Of a DNA stretch of 64,000 bases, positions 47,416-64,000 are shown piece by piece. The notes below the pieces were generated by a model. It had not been told where the DNA came from. It saw nothing but the letters and a program-made list of their open reading frames with translations, and made no database searches. This DNA is from an uncultured Parasphingopyxis sp. (GTDB lineage: Bacteria; Pseudomonadota; Alphaproteobacteria; Sphingomonadales; Sphingomonadaceae). The position numbers were made by a program, and so were the translations under genes. Every line of letters begins with the position of its first letter. Position 1 is the first letter of the stretch. The DNA lies in NCBI RefSeq assembly GCF_937129435.1, contig NZ_CAKZNF010000017.1, forward strand, positions 1-64,000, given 5' to 3'.

Positions 47416-47910
47416 CTAGCTATCGGCACGCACATGGCGGGCGAAACCGCCGTCGACATACAGCAAGGGGCGGATGTCGGTGCACACGTTCGCACTGATG
47501 ACTTCGCCGATCACGATGGAGTGGCTTGCATGCTGGAGGACTTCGCTCCGCGCGCAGACCAGCGACGCCTGCGAGCCGGCAATGACCGGAACATCGCCGC
47601 TCTCGAAATGCCAGTCGACATCGTCGAACCGCGTTTTACGAAAGCGGGGATCGGAAAAGCGGCGAACGATGTCGTCCTGGTCATCGGCAAGGATGTTGAG
47701 GCCGAACCGATCGGCCCCGACCAAAAGCGGGTGCAACCGCGCCGCCTGGTTGATACACGCCAGAATGCTGGGAGGATCGATCGACAGCGAGCAGACCGCG
47801 GTGGCGGCCATGCCCATAGGCCGCCCTTGATCCTCGAGAGTGAGGATCGTCACCGTGGCCGCAAGCCGGCGCATCGCCAGACGAAAATCAGTCTCGACCA
47901 TATCGTGCAT
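47416..47910 (-). CDS. Flavin reductase (HpaC-like) family protein
   Basis: DFRLAMRRLAATVTILTLEDQGRPMGMAATAVCSLSIDPPSILACINQAARLHPLL. Confidence 0.9.
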   Translation of the reverse strand: MHDMVETDFRLAMRRLAATVTILTLEDQGRPMGMAATAVCSLSIDPPSILACINQAARLHPLLVGADRFGLNILADDQDDIVRRFSDPRFRKTRFDDVDWHFESGDVPVIAGSQASLVCARSEVLQHASHSIVIGEVISANVCTDIRPLLYVDGGFARHVRADS

Positions 47911-50315: not shown

Positions 50316-50380
50316 ACGCAAGGCATCGACAGCGGGTAGGCACATCTGCCAACGGTGGCGCGGGAGGACAGGGCGAGGCG

Positions 50381-51520
50381 ATGGATTTCCGGCTTTCCGA
50401 CGATCAAAAGGCGCTTGTCGGCGCCGCCAATGCTTTCGCCGCCGAGCTGTCGGCGAAGACCGACTACGCTGGCGATATGCCCCGCGACCTCTGGACGCTT
50501 TGGGGCGAGCAGAGATGGCTGGGTGCCTGCATCCCCGAGGCGCTGGGCGGCATGGGCCATGATGCGCTGTCGACGGTGCTGACGTTCGAGGCGATGGGCC
50601 GGGCCGGTGTGCCGCGCGGGCAGCTTTTCGCCGTCGGCGCGCATCTGTTCGGTTGCACGGTGGGGATCGCCCGGCACGGCAGCGACGCGCAGCGCGAGAA
50701 CTGGTGCCCCCGCCTGTCCGCCGGCGAGGCGGTCGGCGCGCTGGCCTTTACCGATCCGGGCGGCGGCTCCAATCTCGACGCATGCGCAACGGCGATCCGC
50801 GTCGAGGACGACGAACTGCGCCTCGACGGCAGCAAGACCTTCGTCACCAACGGTGCCCATGCCGATGTCTTTGTCGTGCTCGCCGCATCCGATGACCGCA
50901 AGCCGCCGTTCAACCTGTCGGTCGTACTGGTGCCGCGCGACACGGACGGGCTGGCCATCGAGCCGCTGCAGGGGGTCACGGGCCTGCACCAGACGCACCC
51001 CGCGCGGATTACACTGACCGATTGCCGTCTGCCCGCGGATGCCGTTCTCGGGCGCGTCGGCGGCGGGATGGCCGTGCTGCTCGACATCATGCGCTGGGAA
51101 CGCAGCTGCATTCTCGCCGGGCTGCTCGGCGCGCTCGAACGCGACCTCGTCGCGACGACCGGCTATCTCGAAAGCCGTGGCAGTGCGGAGAAGGCGGCGG
51201 CGCAATTCCAGGCCGTGTCGCATGCGCTGGCGCGCGTCCGGGTCGAGATCGAGAGCGCGCGCTGGCTGATGTACCGGGCGGCGGCGGAGCTCGACGGCGA
51301 TGGCGGATCGCTGATCTTTGCGGCGATGAGCAAGCTGGCGACAAGCGAGACGCTCGTCGAATGCGGGTTGGCACTGCAGCGGCTCGCCGCCGGCCATGGC
51401 TGGACAGGCGGGCTGGGGCTTGCCGAAGCGCTGAACGATGCGATCGGCACGCTCTCCGCTTCGGGCACGAGCGAGGCGCAGCTCAACATGATCTATTCGC
51501 AGCTCCAGCGCGAACTGTGA
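50381..51520 (+). CDS. Acyl-CoA dehydrogenase-like flavoprotein, candidate prolyl-carrier-protein dehydrogenase (PltE-like)
   Basis: MDFRLSDDQKALVGAANAFAAEL...ALSTVLTFEAMGRAGVPRGQLFAVGAHLFGC...GALAFTDPGGGSNLDACATAI...DGSKTFVTNGAHADVFVVLAAS; in operon with A-domain and carrier protein. Confidence 0.85.
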   Translation: MDFRLSDDQKALVGAANAFAAELSAKTDYAGDMPRDLWTLWGEQRWLGACIPEALGGMGHDALSTVLTFEAMGRAGVPRGQLFAVGAHLFGCTVGIARHGSDAQRENWCPRLSAGEAVGALAFTDPGGGSNLDACATAIRVEDDELRLDGSKTFVTNGAHADVFVVLAASDDRKPPFNLSVVLVPRDTDGLAIEPLQGVTGLHQTHPARITLTDCRLPADAVLGRVGGGMAVLLDIMRWERSCILAGLLGALERDLVATTGYLESRGSAEKAAAQFQAVSHALARVRVEIESARWLMYRAAAELDGDGGSLIFAAMSKLATSETLVECGLALQRLAAGHGWTGGLGLAEALNDAIGTLSASGTSEAQLNMIYSQLQREL

Positions 51521-53016
51521 GCCGGATCGTCGACGATCTGATCGCCCGCGCCCAGGCGGCGGGGGACGAGGCGGCGCTGGCCTGGAAAGACGGCGCGATC
51601 CCGGGCCGCCGCTTCTGGGACGGCGTGGCAGGACGCGCCGAATCGCTGAGCAGGTCCGGCGTCGCCCAAGGCGACCGTGTCGCAATCTGGCTGCCCAAAG
51701 GGCCAGCCACCGTCGAGACCCTGTTCGCGGTGATGATCAACGGCGCGATTGCCGTCCCGATCGATCCCGGCTTTCCCGCCGCGCGGGCGACCGCCGTCCT
51801 CGGAGAGATCGGACCGGCGATGCTCGTCACCGATGGCAAGCGGCGCGACATGCTGGCGGGCGGCGCGGTCGAGCGGAGCCGCGTCGTGGTGACCGATGCG
51901 ATGGAAGGGAGCGAACCCGGCGGCGATCCGCTGGCCCGCAAAGCCATCGGCGAAGACGATCCCGCGATGATCCTGATGACGTCGGGCAGTACGGGAACGC
52001 CCAAGGGCATCGTGCTCACCCATGGCAATCTCGCGGCCTTTTCCGACTGGGCGATCGGGCAATTCGGCCTGACGCGCGAGGATCGCTTCTTCAGCCTCGC
52101 GCCGCTGCATTTCGACCTGTCGCTGCTCGACGTGCTGACGAGCCAGCGGCTCGGCGCGTCCGTCTATCTCGTCGGCGAGACCGAGGCGCTGTTTCCCGGC
52201 CCCGTCGCCATGGCGCTGGAGCGGCAGCGCGCGACCGTCTTCTATAGCGTCCCGACCACGCTCCAACGGCTGCTCAGCCATGGCGGGCTGGCGGATCGCG
52301 ACCTCGGCGCGCTGCGCTGGCTGCTCTTCGCGGGCGAGGTCTTCCCCGCCCCGGTACTCGCCGCGCTGATGGAGGCGGTGCCGGAGCCGGGCTACGCCAA
52401 TCTCTACGGCCCGACCGAAACCAATGTCGTGTCGTGCAAGCTGCTGGACGCCGCGCCAGAACTTGGCGAGAAGCCGAATGTCGGGTTGCCGTGCCCACAC
52501 AGCGATATTTCGATCCGCGATGAGCATGGGAACAAACTTGCCACGGGCGAGACAGGCGAAATCTGCGTCGCCGGGCCGACGGTAACGCAGGGCTATTGGC
52601 GGCGTCCCGATTTGACCGCATCGGCCTTTTCCGATGCGCCGGATCGCTTGTATCATACGGGCGACTATGGCTATTTCGACGAAGCGGGCGATTTACGATA
52701 TCTCGGCCGCCGCGATCGGCAGGCGAAACTGCGCGGCTATCGCGTCGAGCTGGAGGAAGTGGAGTTGACGGCAATGGACACCGGACTGGTCGAAGGCGCC
52801 GCGGCGACGGTCGCGGACGGCGCGCTCTGCCTCCACGTGGTCGCGCACGATCCGAAGGCCTTCGCCCCATCGGCGCTGACCCGGGCGCTCGCCGAACGCC
52901 TGCCCCGCTATGCTCTTCCCGACCGTGTCGAAATGCACGAAGCGTTTCCGACAACCTCGTCGGGCAAGGTCGACATGCAAGCGCTTGCGGAATGCGCCGG
53001 CGGGACAGACGCATGA
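51517..53016 (+). CDS. Stand-alone amino-acid adenylation enzyme (candidate L-prolyl, PltF-like); GTG start
   Basis: AMILMTSGSTGTPKGIVLTHGNLAAF, FAGEVFP, NLYGPTETNVVSCKL, YHTGDYGYFDEAGDLRYLGRRDRQAKLRGYRVELEEVE, PTTSSGKVD; NRPS A-domain core motifs. Confidence 0.9.
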   Translation: MSRIVDDLIARAQAAGDEAALAWKDGAIPGRRFWDGVAGRAESLSRSGVAQGDRVAIWLPKGPATVETLFAVMINGAIAVPIDPGFPAARATAVLGEIGPAMLVTDGKRRDMLAGGAVERSRVVVTDAMEGSEPGGDPLARKAIGEDDPAMILMTSGSTGTPKGIVLTHGNLAAFSDWAIGQFGLTREDRFFSLAPLHFDLSLLDVLTSQRLGASVYLVGETEALFPGPVAMALERQRATVFYSVPTTLQRLLSHGGLADRDLGALRWLLFAGEVFPAPVLAALMEAVPEPGYANLYGPTETNVVSCKLLDAAPELGEKPNVGLPCPHSDISIRDEHGNKLATGETGEICVAGPTVTQGYWRRPDLTASAFSDAPDRLYHTGDYGYFDEAGDLRYLGRRDRQAKLRGYRVELEEVELTAMDTGLVEGAAATVADGALCLHVVAHDPKAFAPSALTRALAERLPRYALPDRVEMHEAFPTTSSGKVDMQALAECAGGTDA

Positions 53017-53273
53017 GCGATACGATCGAACCCGTGGTGATCGAGAAGGTCCGCCATGTCGGCAAGGCGGTGGACGGCGACACCGAACTGACACCGGACA
53101 CGCCGCTGCTCGAACGCCAGCTGCTCGATTCGGTCGAGCTGCTTCAGCTGGTTATGGAGCTGGAATCCGCTTTTGGCATCAGCATTCCGCTTGAAGAACT
53201 GGTCGAGGAGAATTTTGCCGATGTGAACCGTGTGGTCGCGCTCGTCGAACGCGCCCGTGAGCGGGCCGCGTGA
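53013..53273 (+). CDS. Acyl/peptidyl carrier protein (PltL-like)
   Basis: 86 aa, DTPLLERQLLDSVELLQLVMELESAFGISIPLEELVEENFADVNRVVALV: phosphopantetheine-site D-S-V and helix pattern; ATG 53013. Confidence 0.9.
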   Translation: MSDTIEPVVIEKVRHVGKAVDGDTELTPDTPLLERQLLDSVELLQLVMELESAFGISIPLEELVEENFADVNRVVALVERARERAA

Positions 53274-54529
53274 CCACGCTTTCGCCCGACGGTCCCGTCG
53301 ACGTCGCCATTGTCGGCGGCGGGCCGGCAGGCGCTTCGCTCGCGCTGCGGTTGCTGGCGCTCGGCAGGCGGCCGCTGATCGTCGAGAAGGAGGATTTCCC
53401 GCGCTACCATATCGGTGAATCGCTGACGGGCGAATGCGCGAACCTGCTGGATGAACTTGGCCTCGGCGATTTCATGCACGGGGCCGGTTTCCCGGTGAAA
53501 CGCGGCGTCATGGTTAGCGGCGCCAGCGCGACGGCGCAATTCTGGGTGCCGGTCGAAGGTCTGGCCGGGGACGGGACGCGTTTTCCCGCGACGACATGGC
53601 AGGTGCGGCGTGACGAATTCGACGCGAAGCTTCTCGATACGGCAGTCGAACGCGGTGCGCTCCACATTAAAGGCGAATGCGTCGACGTGCTGCGCGAAGG
53701 GAATCGCGTCTGCGGCGTCACGATACGCGAGGCGGACGGAACGACGCGGAATATCGAAGCGCGCGCCGTAGCCGATTGTTCGGGCCAGCACGGCTTTCTC
53801 TGCCGCAAGGGCGTGATCGGCCCGAAGGACCGGACGGGATACGAGAATCAGGTCGCGCTGTTCGCGCAGGTGAAGGGCATGCGCCGCGATCCCGAACCCA
53901 ATGACGGCAGCACGCATATCTTCTACGGCCGCCGTCATCACTGGGCCTGGTCGATCCCGCTCGACGACGAAGTGACCAGCGTCGGCATCGTGCTGCCCAA
54001 GGGAAAGCTTGACCGGAACGACCGGTCGAAGGCCGAGCAGTTCGCCGAGAGCCTGTCGCTCGTGAACCCCGAACTGATCGCGCGGACGCAGCATGCCGAA
54101 ATCGTGTCGGACGTCCATGCGATCTCCAACTATTCCTACCATGTCCGCGATTTCACCGGGCCGGGCTTTATCTGCGTCGGCGATTCGCATCGCTTCCTCG
54201 ATCCGATCTTCTCGTTCGGTGTGCTGATCGCGCTGCAGGAGGCGAAGCTCGCCGCCACGGCGCTCAATCGCTGGCTCGACGCACCGGCGAAAATGGCGCC
54301 GCTCGACGATTATGCCGAAGCGGTGAGCCGCGCCCAAGCGGTCGTCGAATATGTCATCCGCACCTTCTGGGAATTTCCGCTCGTCTTCCTGCGCCTCGCC
54401 CATTTCAGCCATCGCGGCGACATCGCCGAGATCTTCTCCGGCCGGCTCTACAGCGAGAATGTCCGCGACATCGAAGCCGTCGGGCTGATGCGCGACCTTT
54501 TGGCGAAATCCGGGAAAATGGCGGCGTGA
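53270..54529 (+). CDS. Flavin-dependent halogenase-like FAD monooxygenase (PltA/CmlS-type family); GTG start
   Basis: VAIVGGGPAGASLALRLLALGRRPLIVEKEDFPRYHIGESL; WAWSIPL (WxWxIP halogenase motif); GDSHRFLDPIFSFGVLIALQEAKLAA. Confidence 0.82.
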   Translation: MTTLSPDGPVDVAIVGGGPAGASLALRLLALGRRPLIVEKEDFPRYHIGESLTGECANLLDELGLGDFMHGAGFPVKRGVMVSGASATAQFWVPVEGLAGDGTRFPATTWQVRRDEFDAKLLDTAVERGALHIKGECVDVLREGNRVCGVTIREADGTTRNIEARAVADCSGQHGFLCRKGVIGPKDRTGYENQVALFAQVKGMRRDPEPNDGSTHIFYGRRHHWAWSIPLDDEVTSVGIVLPKGKLDRNDRSKAEQFAESLSLVNPELIARTQHAEIVSDVHAISNYSYHVRDFTGPGFICVGDSHRFLDPIFSFGVLIALQEAKLAATALNRWLDAPAKMAPLDDYAEAVSRAQAVVEYVIRTFWEFPLVFLRLAHFSHRGDIAEIFSGRLYSENVRDIEAVGLMRDLLAKSGKMAA

Positions 54530-55509
54530 ACCGAACGCCTCGTGCGTCCTTCGCGCCTACGGTCCGGCCGCTCGGCCGCGATCCCGAGGAAATCGATCCC
54601 GAATTCGATCGCATGATGCAGGTCGCGGGCGTCGAGCGCGACGATTTCCTCGCGCTGCTCGATAGGCCCTATGACGCGGTGACGGCAATCGTCCGCGAGG
54701 CCGCCGCCGGCCGGCCCGCCTATCCTTTCATGGCAGTACAAGAGATCGACGACAGCGCCCTGCGCGCGATGATCGAGGACGAGCCGGACGCCGATGCGCT
54801 CGCCGCGCGGCGCATTCTGACCGACCGGATCATGCAGCTCTATCTGCTGCGCGCGCTATCGGCGATGCCCGATGCCGAATTCGATACGCGCGTCTCGGTG
54901 ACCGGGGCAGACCTCGTGCAAGATGCCCTTGCGGCGGGCGAAGGCGTGCTGCTGCTCAACAGCCATATCGGACCGGGCCGGCTGGTCCCGCTGATCGTGG
55001 CGCGGCTCGGCTGGCAGGTAACGTCGCTGGCACCGCACGATTTCCTGCCGATGATCGGCGTCGATTGCGGCGACCGGATCGACGTCGTCGCGCTGGCGGG
55101 CAATGCCGGGCTGGCACCGCTGGGTGCGGCACGACAGGCATTGCAGGCGGGCGGGATCGTGACCACCACCGGCGACGGGCTGCGCGGCCGAGGCAAGGAC
55201 GTCTATCCGTTTCTGGAGTCCGAGCGGCCTTTCACCGACAGCTTCGCCTTCCTCTCGATCGCCTCGGGCGCGCGGTGCCTGCCGGTCTTCATGCATTGCG
55301 AGGAAGATGGCGCGATCGCGATGGATATCTGCCCGGCCATCGAAACCGGCGACCCGGCAGCGCCGGTGCGCGAGCGGATCGAAGCCATGACCCGCGACTA
55401 TATCGACATTCTCGAGCAGCGATGGCTGTCGGATTTCACCAACCTGCCGGCCCGGTCCGTCGCGATGTACAATCGGGAGTTTCGCGGACGGCGCAAGCAG
55501 GACAGCTGA
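54526..55509 (+). CDS. LpxL/HtrB-like (lysophospholipid/lipid A) acyltransferase family protein; GTG start
   Basis: AAGEGVLLLNSHIGPGRLVPLIVARLGW...LAPLGAARQALQAGGIVTTTGDGLRGRGKDVYPFLESERPFTDSFAFLSIASGARCLPVFMHCEEDG. Confidence 0.7.
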   Translation: MNRTPRASFAPTVRPLGRDPEEIDPEFDRMMQVAGVERDDFLALLDRPYDAVTAIVREAAAGRPAYPFMAVQEIDDSALRAMIEDEPDADALAARRILTDRIMQLYLLRALSAMPDAEFDTRVSVTGADLVQDALAAGEGVLLLNSHIGPGRLVPLIVARLGWQVTSLAPHDFLPMIGVDCGDRIDVVALAGNAGLAPLGAARQALQAGGIVTTTGDGLRGRGKDVYPFLESERPFTDSFAFLSIASGARCLPVFMHCEEDGAIAMDICPAIETGDPAAPVRERIEAMTRDYIDILEQRWLSDFTNLPARSVAMYNREFRGRRKQDS

Positions 55510-55530
55510 CCGGTTGCCAATCCGATTGCG

Positions 55531-56571
55531 TTAGATCGATCGAGATTCGGCCCGGGCGAGATAATGCGCCACCGTTGCTTCCAGTCCGGTCTCGAATTCG
55601 GTTGCCGGACGGAAACCGATCTCGGTTCTCGCCCGTTTCGCATCGATGGCATAGCGGCGATCATGGCCGGGGCGATCCGCGACATGCCGGATCAGCGACG
55701 CGCACGCATCGCCGCCCGCTGCGGGGCAATCCGGGAAGCGTTCACTTAGCGAGGCATTCCGGGCAAAGGCGCGATCGATGGCGGCGCAGAGTCTTTCGAC
55801 GAGATCGATATTCGCCCATTCCGCCTCGCCGCCCAGATTGTACGTCCGGCCGCTTTCCCCGCGATCGAGCGCCGCGGCGATCCCCGCGCAATGATCGCCG
55901 ACATGGATCCAGTCGCGCACCTGCTGCCCGTCGCCATAGATCGGCAGCTCGCCGCCCGACAGCGCCCGCGTGATGCACAACGGGATGAGTTTTTCGGCAA
56001 ATTGCCACGGCCCGTAATTGTTCGAACAGCGGGTGACGACCGCGTCGAGCCCATAGGTCTTGTGCCAGGCGCGGACGAGATGGTCCGATGCCGCCTTGGA
56101 CGCGGCATAGGGCGAGTTGGGCGCGGCGGCGTGCGCCTCGGTGAAAGGCGCATCGTCCGGGCCGAGCGCGCCATAGACCTCGTCGGTCGAAACATGGAGG
56201 AAGCGATGCGGGCGCCCCGACCCGGTATCGAGCCAGGCGGCCTTGGCGGCGTCGAGCATCGATTGTGTGCCGTTGACATTGGTCTGCACGAACACCGCCG
56301 GCGCGGCGATCGAATTGTCGACATGGCTTTCGGCGGCGCAGTGGATCAGCCGGTCGATCCCGCGTCCGACGAGCAGCTCGCGAACCAGCGCCGTATCGCC
56401 GATATCGCCGACCACCAGTTCGACGCCGTCGACGCCCTCGATGGCTTCGGGCTGGGCAGCATAGGTCAGCTTGTCGAGGACGACGACAGCTTCGTCGGGC
56501 CGCGCACGGCGCAGATGATGCACGAGGTTGATGCCGACGAACCCGGCGCCGCCGGTAACGAGGATCGTCAT
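55531..56571 (-). CDS. rmlB: dTDP-glucose 4,6-dehydratase
   Basis: MTILVTGGAGFVGINLVHHLRRARPDEAVVVLDKLTYA, HVSTDEVYGALG, SPYAASKAASDHLVRAWHKTYGLDAVVTRCSNNYGPWQFAEKLIPL; ATG 56571. Confidence 0.93.
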   Translation of the reverse strand: MTILVTGGAGFVGINLVHHLRRARPDEAVVVLDKLTYAAQPEAIEGVDGVELVVGDIGDTALVRELLVGRGIDRLIHCAAESHVDNSIAAPAVFVQTNVNGTQSMLDAAKAAWLDTGSGRPHRFLHVSTDEVYGALGPDDAPFTEAHAAAPNSPYAASKAASDHLVRAWHKTYGLDAVVTRCSNNYGPWQFAEKLIPLCITRALSGGELPIYGDGQQVRDWIHVGDHCAGIAAALDRGESGRTYNLGGEAEWANIDLVERLCAAIDRAFARNASLSERFPDCPAAGGDACASLIRHVADRPGHDRRYAIDAKRARTEIGFRPATEFETGLEATVAHYLARAESRSI

Positions 56572-57413
56572 TCCGAGAACTCCGACAGGGCAGCGCGGAG
56601 ATTGGTGCGCCAATGGCCGGGCGTGCCCGTGATCGCCCAGCAGGCATGGCAATCGAGCACCGAATAGGCGGGGCGAGCCGCCGCACTTTCGAACGTGCTG
56701 GCCGGGATCGGCGCGATGTCCGGGACCGGGTCGATCAGGCCGAGCGCCCGCGCCTCTTCGACAATGGCAACGGCGAAATCGTAGCGGCTGGCGAGCCCGG
56801 CATCGGTATAGTGAAACAGGCCGCTTGCCCCGGCATCGACGAGCGCCCAGATCGCGCGCGCCAGGCTGTCGGCGCGGGTCGGCGTGCCGGTCTCGTCGCA
56901 GACCATGCGCATCGGATCGCCCGTCCCAGCCATCGCCAGCACCTTGCCGACGAAATCGCCGCTTCCGCCCGAATAGAGCCAGGCCGTCCGGATAACGAGC
57001 GCGCCGGCCGCCAGCGCCGCCTGCTCTCCGGCCAGTTTCGAACGCCCATAGGCGTTGATCGGCGCGGGCTCGGCATCGGTAGGGATCGGCCGCGAGGCAT
57101 TGCCGTCGAACACATAGTCGGTCGAGATATGGACGAGCGGAATGCCCGTCTGCGCCAGCCGTTCAACGGCATTGGCATTGACTGCGATCGCCGGGGCGTC
57201 GTCCCTTTCTGCACCGTCGACATCGTTAAAGGCGGCACAGTTGACGATCATATCGGGCGCAATGTCCGCAATCGCCTGCCCGGCTTCGGGTGCCGCGATA
57301 TCGAGATCGGCGCGCGTCTTGGCGACAACCGTCACGCCGTCCGGCGCGGCATGTCCGACGGCCCGCCCCAGCTGCCCGCCGGCGCCCGTGATCAGAACGC
57401 GCCTCCCGCTCAC
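56568..57413 (-). CDS. rmlD: dTDP-4-dehydrorhamnose reductase; GTG start
   Basis: RVLITGAGGQLGRAV, VNCAAFNDVDGAE, HISTDYVFDG, YGRSKLAGE. Confidence 0.92.
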   Translation of the reverse strand: MSGRRVLITGAGGQLGRAVGHAAPDGVTVVAKTRADLDIAAPEAGQAIADIAPDMIVNCAAFNDVDGAERDDAPAIAVNANAVERLAQTGIPLVHISTDYVFDGNASRPIPTDAEPAPINAYGRSKLAGEQAALAAGALVIRTAWLYSGGSGDFVGKVLAMAGTGDPMRMVCDETGTPTRADSLARAIWALVDAGASGLFHYTDAGLASRYDFAVAIVEEARALGLIDPVPDIAPIPASTFESAAARPAYSVLDCHACWAITGTPGHWRTNLRAALSEFSE

Positions 57414-57955
57414 GGCGCCAATGAGAAAGCGGCAAGCGAAGGCGCCTCTGCATCGCGTTCGGAGAGGATCGGCTTCGCACCCGCCAGCGGCCAGTCGATG
57501 CCGATATCGGGATCGTTCCACGCCACGGCATGGTCGTCCTCCGGATCGAAATGATCCGAGCAGAGGTAGATCAGGTCGGCCGGGCCATCGAGCGTCAGGA
57601 AACCGTGCGCACAGCCTTCGGGGATGTAGAGCATCGACGGCGCGCCCTCCCCCAGCTCCTCGCCATGCCATTGCCGGAAGGTCGGCGAGGACGGGCGCAG
57701 GTCGACCGCGACATCGAAGACGCGGCCGCGCATCGCCATGACGAGCTTCGCCTGCGGACTGCGTTGCTGGAAATGCAGGCCGCGCAGGACATGGATATCG
57801 GAACGGCTGTGATTGACCTGCACAAAGGGCGCATCGAGGCCGAGATCGGCGAATTTGGCACTGTGCCAGATTTCCTCGAAATGGCCGCGGGCATCGCCGA
57901 AACGCGCGGTCGTGATCCGCAGCACGCCGGGGATATGGGTTTCCTCGGCCCTCAC
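57410..57955 (-). CDS. rmlC: dTDP-4-dehydrorhamnose 3,5-epimerase
   Basis: DARGHFEEIWHSAKFADLGLDAPFVQVNHSRSDIHVLRGLHFQQRSPQAKLVMAMRGRVFDVAVDLRPSSPTF...IPEGCAHGFLTL. Confidence 0.95.
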   Translation of the reverse strand: MRAEETHIPGVLRITTARFGDARGHFEEIWHSAKFADLGLDAPFVQVNHSRSDIHVLRGLHFQQRSPQAKLVMAMRGRVFDVAVDLRPSSPTFRQWHGEELGEGAPSMLYIPEGCAHGFLTLDGPADLIYLCSDHFDPEDDHAVAWNDPDIGIDWPLAGAKPILSERDAEAPSLAAFSLAP

Positions 57956-58833
57956 GAGACCGCGCCGCTCAGCAGGTCGTGCAGATAGGCGCCATATTCG
58001 CTGCCCTCTAACGGCGCGGCGAGCGCTTCAAGATCGGCATCACCGATAAAGCCCTGCCGCCAGGCGATTTCTTCGGGGCAGGCGATCTTGAGGCCTTGCC
58101 GCTCCTCGACGATCCGCACGAAGTTCGCCGCGTCGAACAAGGCCGTCGGCGTGCCGAGATCGAGCCAGGTCGTCCCGCGCCCCAGCCGCTCGACTTCGAG
58201 CGTCCCGCGTTCGAGATAGTGGCGATTGACGTCGGTGATCTCGAGCTCGCCGCGCTGCGAAGGGGCGAGCGAGGCGGCGATATCGGGCGCGATCGCGTCG
58301 TAGAGATACAGGCCGGTCACCGCATGGCGCGAGGCGGGCCGGGCCGGTTTCTCCTCGATCGATGCCGGTTTTCCTTCGGCATCGAAGCCGATCACGCCAT
58401 AGGCCGTGGGATCGCCGACCTGATAGCCGAAAATCGTCGCCCCCCCATCGCGCGCCGCCGCCTTTTGCAGCAACCCGGACAGCCCCTGGCCGTAGAACAG
58501 ATTGTCGCCGAGAATGAGCGCCGATGGCGCGCCGTCCAGGAAATCGCGCGCGATCAGCAGCGCCTCGGCAATGCCGTTGGGCGCGGCCTGCTCGGCATAG
58601 TCGATCCGGCACCCCCATTGCCCGCCATCGCCGAGCAGGTGCCGGAACGCACCGGCATCATGCGGCGTCGTGACGACCAGTATCTCCCTGATTCCGGCCA
58701 GCATCAGCGTCGTCAGCGGATAATAGACCATCGGCTTGTCATAGACCGGCATCAGCTGCTTCGAGACCGATCGGGTCAGCGGATAGAGCCGGCTACCGGT
58801 CCCGCCGGCGAGAATGATGCCCTTGCGTGTCAA
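57952..58833 (-). CDS. rmlA: Glucose-1-phosphate thymidylyltransferase
   Basis: RKGIILAGGTGSRLYPLTRSVSKQLMPVYDKPMVYYPLTTLMLAGIREILVVTTP, LILGDNLFYG. Confidence 0.96.
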   Translation of the reverse strand: MTRKGIILAGGTGSRLYPLTRSVSKQLMPVYDKPMVYYPLTTLMLAGIREILVVTTPHDAGAFRHLLGDGGQWGCRIDYAEQAAPNGIAEALLIARDFLDGAPSALILGDNLFYGQGLSGLLQKAAARDGGATIFGYQVGDPTAYGVIGFDAEGKPASIEEKPARPASRHAVTGLYLYDAIAPDIAASLAPSQRGELEITDVNRHYLERGTLEVERLGRGTTWLDLGTPTALFDAANFVRIVEERQGLKIACPEEIAWRQGFIGDADLEALAAPLEGSEYGAYLHDLLSGAVS

Positions 58834-58882
58834 CTGTCATGCCTGCCCTTCGCGCACACGCTCGGTCAAAGCGGCGGCGGAA

Positions 58883-60667
58883 TCAAGGGAAGCGGACATC
58901 GCGCCTGTCTTCCCGCAACATCTTTTCCTGCCCATCGCCCTGGCAATCGAACGATCGCGAATAGCCGATTTCCCTGGCGGCATCGCCGCAGACCGCCCAG
59001 ATTCTCTCTTCCCATTCGGGATCGATCGCGAAACTCGTGCGGCTGTCGTCGATTTCGGGTGCCGGGGCGAGACCGGCGCCATCGCCGAGAAAGTCGCGTA
59101 CGTTACGGGCCACGATATCGGGCTGCCCGATGATATCCTCGAACCGGACTTCGAGATAACGGTCGGGGCCAAGCTCGCGCCCGAGCCGCGCGACCGGCGG
59201 CACCTGGTAGAGCCAGGTCAGCGCGTTGCGCATGAAATCGTGATCGGTCCGCAGCTTTGCCGCCTCGCGGCCGGCCGCGCGATAGGCGGCGTGGCAGACC
59301 GTCCGTCCCACCAGATTGTCGGGGCGCGACGTCATATGCGTGCGGCGGGCGCAGCAGGTGACCGGATGCCGCACCAGATGGACGATCTTCGCATTGTCGA
59401 ACACGTCCAGCAGTTGCGGGATCGCGAGCACCGTTTCGGGCAGCTTGAAGCCCCACAGCCCGCCTTCCCGAAAGCCGCCTTTTTGCAGGATATTGTCTGC
59501 CGTCAGCCGGAAGAGGTGCCGCCACGCCTCGATCTCCCGCGCCTCGATCGTATAATGCGCGGCATGGGCCTTGATCGCCATCTCGTAAATCATGTCGACC
59601 CATTCGAGCGAATCGGACGATTTGTTCAGCCGGTTGCCGAGAAACACGCCGCTTCCCGCGACGATGTCCGAAATCAGCCGCGTCCCGCTTCCGCCCCTTC
59701 CTGTCACGATGACCGGTGATGCCAGGACATCGTCGGGAAAGCGCGGCGCGGGCGGCGTTCGCAATGCGGGCGTCGGGGTATAGCCGATCCGCGCCATCGC
59801 TTCACCGCACAGCGCGAGGATGTTGCGCTCCTGCTCGATCGAGAGCCGGTCGCGCCATTTTTCGACCGAACGCGTGTCGATGCCGCGATTGCGATTGAGC
59901 AAGCCCGGACCCTGGCCGCGCATGACGCGCGGATGCTCGATCATATCCTCATGCCAAACCAGCCCGGCATGGTTGGCGAGGTGCACGGTATACGGCCCGG
60001 CATCCTCGACGAAATCCTCGTAGCGGAAGACATAGGGGTCGAGCCCCGCCCGTTCGAACGAAGCCTGCGCCGTCGACTTCGCGCGCCAGACGCGCGCGCG
60101 CTTCAGGTGCATCGGCGTGGCGGGATCCTCGATATAGGCGATATCCTCGGCATGGACGGCCGCTATGGCGGGATCGCCCTTCATCCGTTCCAGCTGGTTG
60201 GCGACCATGTCGATACTGCCGATCGCTGCCATCGACACGACGACCGAACGCGGATCACGCACGGGGTAGATCACGCTCACCGGAATATCGAGCGCCGCGA
60301 GCTGCGTGGCGTTATAGGTGAGGTTGGGCGCCTTGAGCGCGAGGTGTGTGATGCCGGGCGCGGGGACGGCCACGCCATCGCGTCCGGCTACGCGCTCTTT
60401 CGGGCGCCGGTATTTCTCCGCCGCGCGCGCGAGCGTCGGGCCGTAGAGCGCCTCGGCCTCCTCGCTCCCGGCCAGCAAGGCGTCCGCCCAGCGCATCAGC
60501 CCGTCGGTCTCGTCGATCAGCAACACGTTCGGATGCGCGCCGATCACCTCGCCGCTCAGCGAGGTGCCGCTGCGCTGGCAACCGACAATCACGACCAGCC
60601 TTTCAATCCCCTCAAACCGCGGCAATTTCCGCAATCCTCCTTGCGATTTCCGAGGCCCCGTCCTCAT
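58883..60667 (-). CDS. Sulfotransferase-family protein with two tandem sulfotransferase-like domains
   Basis: Two P-loop-like PAPS-binding starts: LVVIVGCQRSGTSLSGEVIGAHPNV and SPVIVTGRGGSGTRLISDIVAGSGV, each followed by an R-D-P/R-H-P and Y-x-x-V/F-R-Y/F-E-D segment (IYPVRDPRSVV / VHLVRHPVTCC; YVFRYEDFV / LEVRFEDII). Confidence 0.8.
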   Translation of the reverse strand: MRTGPRKSQGGLRKLPRFEGIERLVVIVGCQRSGTSLSGEVIGAHPNVLLIDETDGLMRWADALLAGSEEAEALYGPTLARAAEKYRRPKERVAGRDGVAVPAPGITHLALKAPNLTYNATQLAALDIPVSVIYPVRDPRSVVVSMAAIGSIDMVANQLERMKGDPAIAAVHAEDIAYIEDPATPMHLKRARVWRAKSTAQASFERAGLDPYVFRYEDFVEDAGPYTVHLANHAGLVWHEDMIEHPRVMRGQGPGLLNRNRGIDTRSVEKWRDRLSIEQERNILALCGEAMARIGYTPTPALRTPPAPRFPDDVLASPVIVTGRGGSGTRLISDIVAGSGVFLGNRLNKSSDSLEWVDMIYEMAIKAHAAHYTIEAREIEAWRHLFRLTADNILQKGGFREGGLWGFKLPETVLAIPQLLDVFDNAKIVHLVRHPVTCCARRTHMTSRPDNLVGRTVCHAAYRAAGREAAKLRTDHDFMRNALTWLYQVPPVARLGRELGPDRYLEVRFEDIIGQPDIVARNVRDFLGDGAGLAPAPEIDDSRTSFAIDPEWEERIWAVCGDAAREIGYSRSFDCQGDGQEKMLREDRRDVRFP

Positions 60668-61697
60668 CGCTCATTGCCGCCGCGGCGGCCTGGGCGCCGT
60701 GGCGAAATTCCTCCCCCATGTCGCGATCAGCATAGGGCAGCCGTCCCCGGCTGTCAGCCGCGATGCCCGCGCCGAGCCGCTCGACCATGTCGCCGAGGAT
60801 GGCGTGATTGATGTGCGTCGGCTTGATTGCCATCGGCTTGCCCGCAGCCAAGGCCTGATAGGTCGATCCCGCGCCGCCCTGCGAAAGCACGGCGCCTGCC
60901 TTCGCCATGACCGCCGCGAGCGGCAGCCGGTCGAAATAGTGGATGCGGCGTGAACTGGCCGTCACGGGGCGCTTCCCCTCGGTTTCCGTATGAACGCAGA
61001 CGATATCACCGCAGTCGAACAAATCCGCGACGGTTTCGAACAGCTCCACTTCCGGCATCCGCCCCGTCGAACCGAGCGAACAGAGCAGGAAATTGTCGAG
61101 CCCGGCGATCTCACCCGGCACATCGCCCTCGTAGGTCCACCAGCATCCGCCGCAGCCATGATGGTGTTCGGGAAGGTCGGGAAAGAGCGAGAGGATCGGG
61201 CCGGGATCGGCATAGAGCACGGCGTCCGCCTCGTAGAGCTCGTGCACGTCGCGCACCGGGGGCATGTCCTTGGCCGCCCGCGCAGCGTTGATATGGTCGA
61301 CCTGCCGTTCGAAACTACGCGCCTGCTGCGTGTAGAGGCCCGCCGCGCGCGTCAGAAAGACGTTGGTGACGTTGATGCGCGTCCAGTCCGGCAGCCGCGC
61401 CGTCGCCAGCCAGCCGAGCGGGTTGCAGTCCTGCACGATGGCGTCGAAGCGGCGATCGGCGAACAGCTCTTCCAGCGCATCGCCGAAGGGCAGGCAGGGC
61501 AGGCAGGGCTTTTCGCGTTTGGTGGGCAGCCGGATCGTATCGAACCGCTCGGTAAACACCGCCGGGTCGAAGCGATCGAAATCGGGGCGGATAAAGACGA
61601 TCCGGTGATCGGTCAGCTCACGCAGCCGGATCGCGACCTCGTAAAGCCGCCCGAAATGGCCGAGCGCCGGTCCCGCGATTAAAGCTAAGTCCCCCAT
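60612..61697 (-). CDS. UGT/MGT-like (GT-B) glycosyltransferase
   Basis: LIAGPALGHFGRLYEVAIRL, FLLCSLGSTGRMPEVELF, RIHYFDRLPLAAVMAKAGAVLSQGGAGSTYQALAAGKPMAIKPTHINHAILGDMVERLGAGI donor-binding signature. Confidence 0.85.
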   Translation of the reverse strand: MGDLALIAGPALGHFGRLYEVAIRLRELTDHRIVFIRPDFDRFDPAVFTERFDTIRLPTKREKPCLPCLPFGDALEELFADRRFDAIVQDCNPLGWLATARLPDWTRINVTNVFLTRAAGLYTQQARSFERQVDHINAARAAKDMPPVRDVHELYEADAVLYADPGPILSLFPDLPEHHHGCGGCWWTYEGDVPGEIAGLDNFLLCSLGSTGRMPEVELFETVADLFDCGDIVCVHTETEGKRPVTASSRRIHYFDRLPLAAVMAKAGAVLSQGGAGSTYQALAAGKPMAIKPTHINHAILGDMVERLGAGIAADSRGRLPYADRDMGEEFRHGAQAAAAAMSDEDGASEIARRIAEIAAV

Positions 61698-61740
61698 GAT
61701 GCGCGCTTTACCGAACTGCCCGGCAGGAGCAAGTCGTTGG

Positions 61741-62973
61741 CTATTCGAGCATTTCTTTCAGCGGCACGGATGCATCGGCAAGCCGGGCGCGATCGATGAC
61801 TGCGCCCGCCTCGACCAGCTTTCGGCCCTGGACATAATCCCTGGTCGCATTGACGCAATCGAGCGCGATCACCTTGCCGCCGCGCAGATATACGATCGAG
61901 AAGCTGCGCTCGTCCGGCGACCCGCGCAACACGGTTTCGTCGAAGCCGAGATTGAGCCCCGCCGTCTGCAGCTTTAGATCGTACTGGTTGGACCAGAACC
62001 AGGGCAGCGCGTCATAGGGTTCGGCATTGCCGCAGATCGCCTTCGCCGCCGTCGTTGCCATGTCGTTCGCATTCTGCACGCTTTCGAGCCGGACGGTCTG
62101 CCCATCGGCATAGCGATTCGCATGCGCCGCGCAATCGCCCACCACAAAGATGTCGGGCAGGTTCGATCGGCAATGTTCGTCGACATCGATGCCGTTTTCG
62201 CCCGTCGCGCCGGCTTCGCGCAGCGGCTCGACCGCCGGAACGATGCCGATCCCCACGATCACCGCATCGCACCGCAGCACTTCGCCATCGGCGAGCCTGA
62301 CGCCGGTGACGCGCGTCCCGTCGCCTTCGAGACAATCGAGCATCGTACCGGTGCGCAGGTCGACGCCGTGCGCGCGATGCTCCGCCTCATAGAACTGCGA
62401 CAGCTCTTCGCCCGCGACGCGCGCCAGCACGCGGTCGAGCGCTTCGAGCAGCACGACCTTGCAGCCGAGCTTGGTCAGAACGGCGGCCGCCTCGAGCCCG
62501 ATATAGCCACCGCCGATCACGACCATCCGCTTGGCGCCGCCATCGAGTTCGCCCATCAGCGCATCGACATCGGCCCGGTCGCGCACCGCGTGCACGCCCG
62601 CCAACTCCCCGCCGGCGCAGGTCAACCGCCGCGGATCGCCGCCCGTCGCCCAGATCAGATGACCATATTCGATCGTTTCGCCGCCCGCCGTCGTCACGCG
62701 ATGGGCCTCTGGGTCGACGGCGACGATCTCGGTCTCCAGCGTCAACGCGATATCGCGGTCGGCCCAGAATTTCTCCGGCCGGATCAGGATGCGCTCGAAC
62801 GCCTTGTCGCGCGCCAGATATTCCTTGGAAAGCGGCGGGCGTTCATAGGGCGGATGGCTGTCGCGCCCGGCCATCAGGATCGAGCCTTCGAACCCCTGCT
62901 GGCGAAGCGCGATCGCCGCCTGTGCACCGCCATGGCCGGTGCCGACGATCAGCACATCATGGCGCTCGCTCAT
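61741..62973 (-). CDS. FAD-dependent pyridine nucleotide-disulfide oxidoreductase (ferredoxin reductase-like)
   Basis: [97 protein letters not shown]. Confidence 0.93.
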
Positions 62974-63368
62974 CCCTCGACCCGGTGAATCGCGCAGAGC
63001 TTGTTGCCGTCGGGATCGCGGATATAGGAAAGCTGCATCGCGCCGAGTTGGCTCTCGCGAAGCCCCGGCGGGTCTTCGATCGAGGTGCCGCCCGCCGCGA
63101 CGCCCGCATCGTGAAACGCCTTCACTTGCTCGGCGGAATGACATTTGAAGCCGATCGTGCCGCCATTGGCAAAGGTCGCCGGCTGGCCGTCGATCGGCTC
63201 GCTGACGCAGAACGTCCCGCCGTCATGGATGTAGAAGTGGCGCGTGATGCCGCTGTCCGTGACATTCTCGATCGGATCGCCCTCGAAACCGAGCGTGCCG
63301 AGCACGGCCTTGTAGAAAGCTTTCGATTTTTCCAGGTCGTTCGATCCGACCATGATGTGATTGAACAT
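62970..63368 (-). CDS. VOC / glyoxalase family protein
   Basis: [30 protein letters not shown]...[21 protein letters not shown] 63368. Confidence 0.9.
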
Positions 63369-63391
63369 GTTCTTCTCCTTGGTTTCGGGCC

Positions 63392-64000
63392 TTAATAGAC
63401 GACGACGCTGCGGATGCTTTCGCCGGCGTGCATCAGGTCGAAGCCCTTGTTGATCTCGTCGAGCGAGAGGGTGTGGGTGATCATCGGATCGATCTGGATC
63501 TTGCCGTCCATATACCAGTCGACGATCTTGGGAACGTCGGTCCGGCCCTTGGCGCCGCCAAATGCGGTGCCGCGCCAGTTGCGCCCCGTCACCAGCTGGA
63601 ACGGCCGTGTCTCGATCGTCGCCCCGGCTTCGGCAACGCCGATGATGATCGAGGTGCCCCAGCCCTTGTGACAGCTTTCGAGCGCCTGGCGCATCACCGT
63701 CGTGTTGCCCGTGCAATCGAAGGTGAAGTCGGCGCCGCCGTCGAGCATGTTGACGATATGCTCGACGACATCGCCGACATCCTTGGGGTTGACGAAGTCG
63801 GTCATGCCGAACTTGCGGCCCCATTCCTCCCGGTCGGGATTGATGTCGACGCCGACGATCCGGTCGGCCCCGGCCATCTTCGCGCCCTGCAGCACGTTGA
63901 GGCCGATCCCGCCCAGCCCGAAGACGACGACATTGTCACCCGGCCGCACATCGGCGGTGTTGACCACCGCGCCCACGCCCGTTGTCACGCCGCAGCCGAC
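63392..64000 (-). CDS. S-(hydroxymethyl)glutathione dehydrogenase / class III alcohol dehydrogenase (3' part; 5' end beyond window)
   Basis: CGVTTGVGAVVNTADVRPGDNVVVFGLGGIGLNVLQGAKMAGADRIVGVDINPDREEWGRKFGMTDFVNPKDV...GWGTSIIIGVAEAGATIETRPFQLVTGRNWRGTAFGGAKGRTDVPKIVDWYMDGKI. Confidence 0.93.
   Translation of the reverse strand, partial: VGCGVTTGVGAVVNTADVRPGDNVVVFGLGGIGLNVLQGAKMAGADRIVGVDINPDREEWGRKFGMTDFVNPKDVGDVVEHIVNMLDGGADFTFDCTGNTTVMRQALESCHKGWGTSIIIGVAEAGATIETRPFQLVTGRNWRGTAFGGAKGRTDVPKIVDWYMDGKIQIDPMITHTLSLDEINKGFDLMHAGESIRSVVVY

Follow-up and report, generated by a model that had tools for sequence, protein, structure and literature searches.

A five-gene operon in Parasphingopyxis combining a prolyl-type adenylation domain, a Bmp2-like halogenase and an LpxL/PatA-fold protein

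Gene content of the operon

The window analysed here is a 64,000-nucleotide stretch of one contig from an uncultured Parasphingopyxis sp. (Sphingomonadaceae). It contains a five-gene operon in the order dehydrogenase, adenylation (A) domain, acyl carrier protein (ACP), flavin halogenase and LpxL/PatA-fold protein. All four junctions are 4-nt overlaps, either ATGA or GTGA; a scan for promoters and terminators gave a signal at chance level. The first gene (50381..51520, + strand) encodes an FAD protein of the acyl-CoA dehydrogenase fold, as assigned from NCBIfam and PDB matches. Its top NCBIfam families were the RedW L-prolyl-PCP dehydrogenase (251.6 bits) and PigA (248.7 bits), with the next family at 168.6 bits; the RedW score falls below the equivalog cut-off of 650 bits, and the protein is therefore described as RedW-like and not as RedW. 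Among PDB entries the best match was 6cxt_B (211.8 bits), followed by the prolyl-ACP dehydrogenase AnaB (4irn, 159.5 bits). The 6cxt_B chain was solved with the ACP (chain A) of an alpha/beta-hydrolase-fold protein, and we take this entry to be the Bmp3/Bmp1 complex. An M..ER motif is invariant across the cassette dehydrogenases. These matches suggest that the first gene product is probably an L-prolyl-ACP dehydrogenase, which would form the pyrrole.

The second gene (51517-53016, + strand) begins with GTG and encodes a 499-aa AMP-binding enzyme (Pfam PF00501, 3.1e-75). It is followed by a gene (53013..53273, + strand) for a stand-alone acyl/peptidyl carrier protein of 86 aa, which holds a PP-binding domain only (PF00550, 2.2e-7) with an LLDS serine site and matches a D-alanyl carrier protein (33.0 bits), the 6cxt_A ACP (32.2 bits), PigG (31.2 bits) and PltL (30.5 bits) in the PDB. 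The fourth gene (53270..54529, + strand) encodes a variant-B flavin-dependent halogenase that is Bmp2-like in both its PDB match and its motifs. Its top PDB entry was 5bva, which is Bmp2 (PMC8407142), at 270.5 bits, versus 126.1 bits for PltA and 121.8 bits for Mpy16 (5buk). The characteristic motifs are kept, with GxGxxG present as GGGPAG, WxWxIP as WAWSIP (residues 225-230) and the catalytic lysine as K77; indeed, WxWxIP and Lys77 are invariant in the halogenase alignment. The enzyme probably halogenates pyrrolyl-ACP. In Bmp2, residues Y302, F306 and A345 control the number of halogens added (PMC5577590; PMC8407142). The equivalent residues are F, I and V in the window halogenase and S, V and W in Mpy16, on the assumption of a 3-residue crystal-chain tag offset in the Bmp2 numbering, which puts Tyr, Phe and Ala in the right places. 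Within the operon we found no flavin reductase gene; the nearest seen is a flavin reductase-like gene at 47416-47910 (- strand; PF01613, 5e-33), which could supply FADH2 to the halogenase. Likewise, no thioesterase was found, either on the 86-aa ACP or in the operon.

The fifth gene (54526..55509, + strand) encodes an acyltransferase-like protein of the LpxL/PatA fold, matching PF03279 (Lip_A_acyltrans) at 6.6e-8. The corresponding protein of a second genome of the same genus (G981) matches the same family at 6.6e-7, both matches being weak but above the cut-off. In a Foldseek search with a structural model of moderate confidence (pLDDT 62.6), PatA, LpxM and GPAT were the sole matches at E<=0.001. 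The acid of the canonical HX4D/E motif is absent, the motif reading HIGPGR (HX4R) in the window and HFGPAH (HX4H) in G981. At the thresholds used, a search of 289 class genomes, 234 phylum genomes and a plasmid collection revealed no relatives besides these two copies, and tblastn against the plasmids with the fifth protein or its G981 homologue returned nothing.

Specificity code of the adenylation domain

To read the substrate-specificity code we aligned the A-domain by MAFFT with a GrsA PheA reference fragment, whose letter-for-letter identity with 1AMU was confirmed beforehand. The code at GrsA positions 235-331 (52114..52431, + strand) is DLLYLALVV, to which K517 is added. Its residues are D235 (aa200, nt 52114-52116), L236 (aa201, nt 52117-52119), L239 (aa204, nt 52126-52128), Y278 (aa243, nt 52243-52245), L299 (aa270, nt 52324-52326), A301 (aa272, nt 52330-52332), L322 (aa296, nt 52402-52404), V330 (aa304, nt 52426-52428), V331 (aa305, nt 52429-52431) and K517 (aa484, nt 52966-52968). 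This alignment reproduces exactly the DLLYLALVV(K) that a sequence-only reading of this DNA had derived by hand, the lysine codon falling outside the interval 52081-52470 covered by that reading. Residue-level alignments place the code residues in register with 6o6e_B and 7thn_B, of which the former is PltF (PMC11253843) and the latter was identified as PigI from its partner chain, PigG.

The code of PltF is DLLYLALVC, from which the window A-domain departs at position 331 alone (Cys to Val), while that of PigI is DLFYIAWVC. Stand-alone L-prolyl A-domains have L(L/F)YLALVC as their published consensus (PMC3874040), and the near-identity to such codes proposed in the sequence-only reading thus holds, with 331 as the sole difference. 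Eight of nine positions fit DL[LF]YLALVC, compared with zero to four of nine in control ANL enzymes (enzymes from the same genome, other NRPS modules, DltA and GrsA), so that, as judged from these sequences, the match to the prolyl pattern is well beyond chance. The full DL(L/F)YLALVC string was read in seven A-domains adjoining prolyl-dehydrogenase-like genes. In a tree, the window and congener A-domains fall on the same branch side as the seven cassette A-domains, with support of 90/91, which is below the starred level. A scan of genome contigs with the A-domain alone returned distant ANL enzymes only. When the A4-A5 segment was compared with all PDB chains by HMMER, PltF (6o6e_B, 79 bits) ranked above PigI (7thn_B, 66 bits) and DltA (47 bits). 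The two best matches of the pocket segment are therefore both L-Pro:carrier-protein ligases, and the interpretation of the code given in the sequence-only reading is supported.

The substitution at 331 has a precedent in modular prolyl domains, whose consensus is VQ(Y/F)IAHVV, with Val usual at this position (PMC3874040); the window A-domain carries the same residue. In a model of CcbC, L-proline contacts the counterparts of 236, 301 and 330 and no other residues, and 331 is shielded from the substrate (PMC3874040). At these three contact positions the window A-domain has Leu, Ala and Val, in agreement with the stand-alone prolyl consensus. The A-domain of G981 reads DLLYFALVI, with Phe at 299 and Ile at 331, and position 331 is thus aliphatic in this lineage. 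Taken together, these comparisons support a pocket like that of a proline-activating enzyme, and the protein is probably a stand-alone L-proline:ACP ligase with the code DLLYLALVV-K. This prolyl reading is independently backed, since the neighbouring dehydrogenase, halogenase and ACP match Bmp proteins or prolyl-carrier-protein systems.

Instead of proline itself, the A-domain might take some other small amino acid or an analogue of proline, with pipecolate, azetidine-carboxylate and dehydro- or substituted prolines as examples, in which case the operon would yield a different halogenated heterocycle. The window and G981 pockets are identical to no proven prolyl enzyme compared; the pair has Val or Ile at 331 against an otherwise invariant Cys, G981 has Phe at 299, and a few substitutions in the pocket can turn prolyl domains towards alkyl-prolines (PMC5730197). 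However, the pocket is opened to alkyl-prolines by the introduction of smaller residues (Gly at 330, Ala at 239), and these are absent here; in the CcbC model, moreover, 331 is the position shielded from the substrate (PMC3874040). With the adjoining dehydrogenase also of the prolyl type, we regard an analogue as quite unlikely. Activation of D-alanine or another amino acid in the manner of DltA, with no tie to pyrrole, is scarcely credible: DltA and DltC are among the top NCBIfam matches of the A-domain and ACP and a D-alanyl carrier protein is the ACP's top PDB match, but the DltA code (DLMTLCTVA) agrees at only four of nine positions, the pocket segment scores 79 bits with PltF against 47 with DltA, and we know of no Dlt system with a dehydrogenase or halogenase.

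Conservation and genomic setting

A halogenase profile was positive in 2 of 401 family genomes, namely the window genome and G981. The G981 operon has the identical five-gene order, with identities of 53% for the dehydrogenase, 51% for the A-domain, 51% for the ACP, 64% for the halogenase and 39% for the fifth protein. A tRNA-Ser gene lies just before it and a Crp-like gene after it, and its surroundings have no rhamnose, sulfotransferase or glycosyltransferase genes. The five genes are therefore the unit, because G981 keeps the same order elsewhere, where the rhamnose and sulfotransferase genes that adjoin the window operon are missing. The G981 copy (L074, 873-6165 of a 12.4-kb contig) begins right after tRNA-Ser(CGA), the kind of site at which integration typically occurs. 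In the window genome glk extends to 50315 and the start of ppc lies at about 64.6 kb in the contig, leaving about 14 kb between them, whereas in the congeners G197 and G238 ppc directly follows glk; the stretch at 50316..64000 has no counterpart there. Since the G981 flanks differ and glk and ppc adjoin in G197 and G238, the operon is best read as a unit acquired separately at different sites. This glk-ppc stretch also holds the sole rfbA copy found in the window genome, and a 594-aa sulfotransferase gene (58883-60667, - strand) with two matched stretches to Sulfotransfer_3, for which a partial 40% homologue was found among 10 genus genomes in G980 only.

Outside the family, the dehydrogenase and A-domain are found together with the halogenase in Brasilonema and four genomes of the f188 family. 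On the Brasilonema octagenarum plasmid pBOCT1 (L011, 8718-13245), genes for a dehydrogenase, A-domain, ACP and FAD oxidoreductase occur in the same order, followed by NRPS/PKS genes; the A-domain there has the code DLLYLALVC and is annotated only as a D-alanine ligase. The four f188 loci (L054, L055, L056 and L057), from small-genome Pseudomonadota, contain an A-domain, a dehydrogenase and a Bmp2-like halogenase of ~35-40% identity adjoining a second FAD halogenase-like gene. One of them (L054) additionally has genes for an ACP, a 429-aa protein without a Pfam match and a beta-ketoacyl synthase, a set that suggests a halopyrrole-primed, polyene-type pathway. The short loci around other class-level halogenase matches (~35%) contained no dehydrogenase or A-domain. 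In the literature searched we found no report of a halopyrrole operon in Sphingomonadaceae, and searches on pyrrole with lipid A acyltransferase, and on the code string, found no matching system.

Predicted pathway and comparison with known systems

These observations suggest a pathway in which the stand-alone A-domain would activate L-proline with ATP and load the adjoining carrier protein, the acyl-CoA-dehydrogenase-like protein would convert prolyl-S-ACP to pyrrole-2-carboxyl-S-ACP, and the Bmp2-like flavin enzyme would halogenate the tethered pyrrole. The LpxL/PatA-fold protein would then most likely pass the halopyrrole-carbonyl to an alcohol or amine acceptor. We consider this sequence of loading, oxidation, halogenation on the ACP and offloading by the fifth protein a likely account of the operon as a whole, the product most likely being a halogenated pyrrole-2-carboxyl-ACP made from L-proline. 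The sequences themselves establish the code, the family assignments, the operon and the conservation of its five genes as a unit, whereas the actual substrates, the halide, the number of halogens and the final step are inferred. The fifth protein probably replaces the Bmp1 thioesterase in offloading, with the chances evenly balanced as to whether its step is a true acyl transfer. Somewhat short of even are the chances of a more specific proposal, that this compact, horizontally moving operon provides a sphingomonad-like alphaproteobacterium with halogenated pyrrole-2-carboxyl conjugates, the halopyrroyl group being handed directly from the ACP to a lipid or some other acceptor by a derived enzyme of the LpxL/PatA fold whose active site is non-canonical.

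A Bmp-like route might instead release a free polyhalopyrrole, volatile or diffusible (e.g. tetrabromopyrrole), with the fifth protein a hydrolase or dispensable. Indeed, Bmp proteins are the nearest matches of both the halogenase and the dehydrogenase, the window halogenase has Val where Mpy16 has Trp at the Bmp2 A345 position, and the acyltransferase acid is missing from the fifth protein. Such a route is nevertheless unlikely, given an ACP and operon without a thioesterase, a fifth protein of acyltransferase fold, and Phe and Ile in place of Bmp2 Tyr302 and Phe306. Decoration of a rhamnose-containing glycan or glycoside is decidedly unlikely. In clorobiocin the pyrrole acylates a deoxysugar, and the operon is followed immediately, on the opposite strand and within the same glk-ppc stretch, by genes for dTDP-rhamnose, a sulfotransferase and a glycosyltransferase; however, none of these is near the G981 operon, and the rfbA gene is probably a general rhamnose supply, because three congeners each carry one homologue of it at another place and two of these congeners lack the pyrrole operon. 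Carotenoid-linked and rhamnose-linked readings, prompted by the glycosyltransferase, sulfotransferase and rfb neighbours, were set aside for the same absence beside the G981 operon.

The proposed transfer by the fifth protein to an acceptor can be set against several known systems. The LpxL/LpxM and PatA acyltransferases share the Lip_A_acyltrans Pfam family and fold with the fifth protein, but their HX4D/E acid is not kept. In clorobiocin and coumermycin (CloN4/CouN4), which have prolyl activation and a pyrrole-2-carboxyl unit in common with the window, this unit is transferred to its acceptor by an acyltransferase, though to our knowledge not one of the LpxL fold, and no aminocoumarin genes were seen at the window operon. 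PltF/PltL (pyoluteorin) and PigI/PigG (prodigiosin) likewise pair a stand-alone prolyl-code A-domain with a separate small carrier protein, but have C331 in place of Val, and the surroundings of the window operon showed no pyoluteorin or prodigiosin assembly genes. Bmp1-4 of Pseudoalteromonas (tetrabromopyrrole) cover the same four functions and provide the best PDB matches for the dehydrogenase and halogenase; Bmp1, however, is an ACP-thioesterase fusion whereas the window ACP is unfused, the Bmp2 pocket differs at all three residues noted above, and the window operon has its extra LpxL/PatA-fold gene. Tetrabromopyrrole, pyoluteorin and other halopyrroles act as potent antibiotics and ecological signals. 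A minimal operon that apparently brings an offloading enzyme of its own, present in only 2 of 401 sampled family genomes, would be a new halopyrrole source and a case in which to test whether an LpxL-fold enzyme can carry out transfer from a carrier protein to an acceptor. Thus, while the A-domain is of a known kind, what is new relative to these systems is the predicted five-gene halopyrrole cassette with an LpxL-fold protein of its own.
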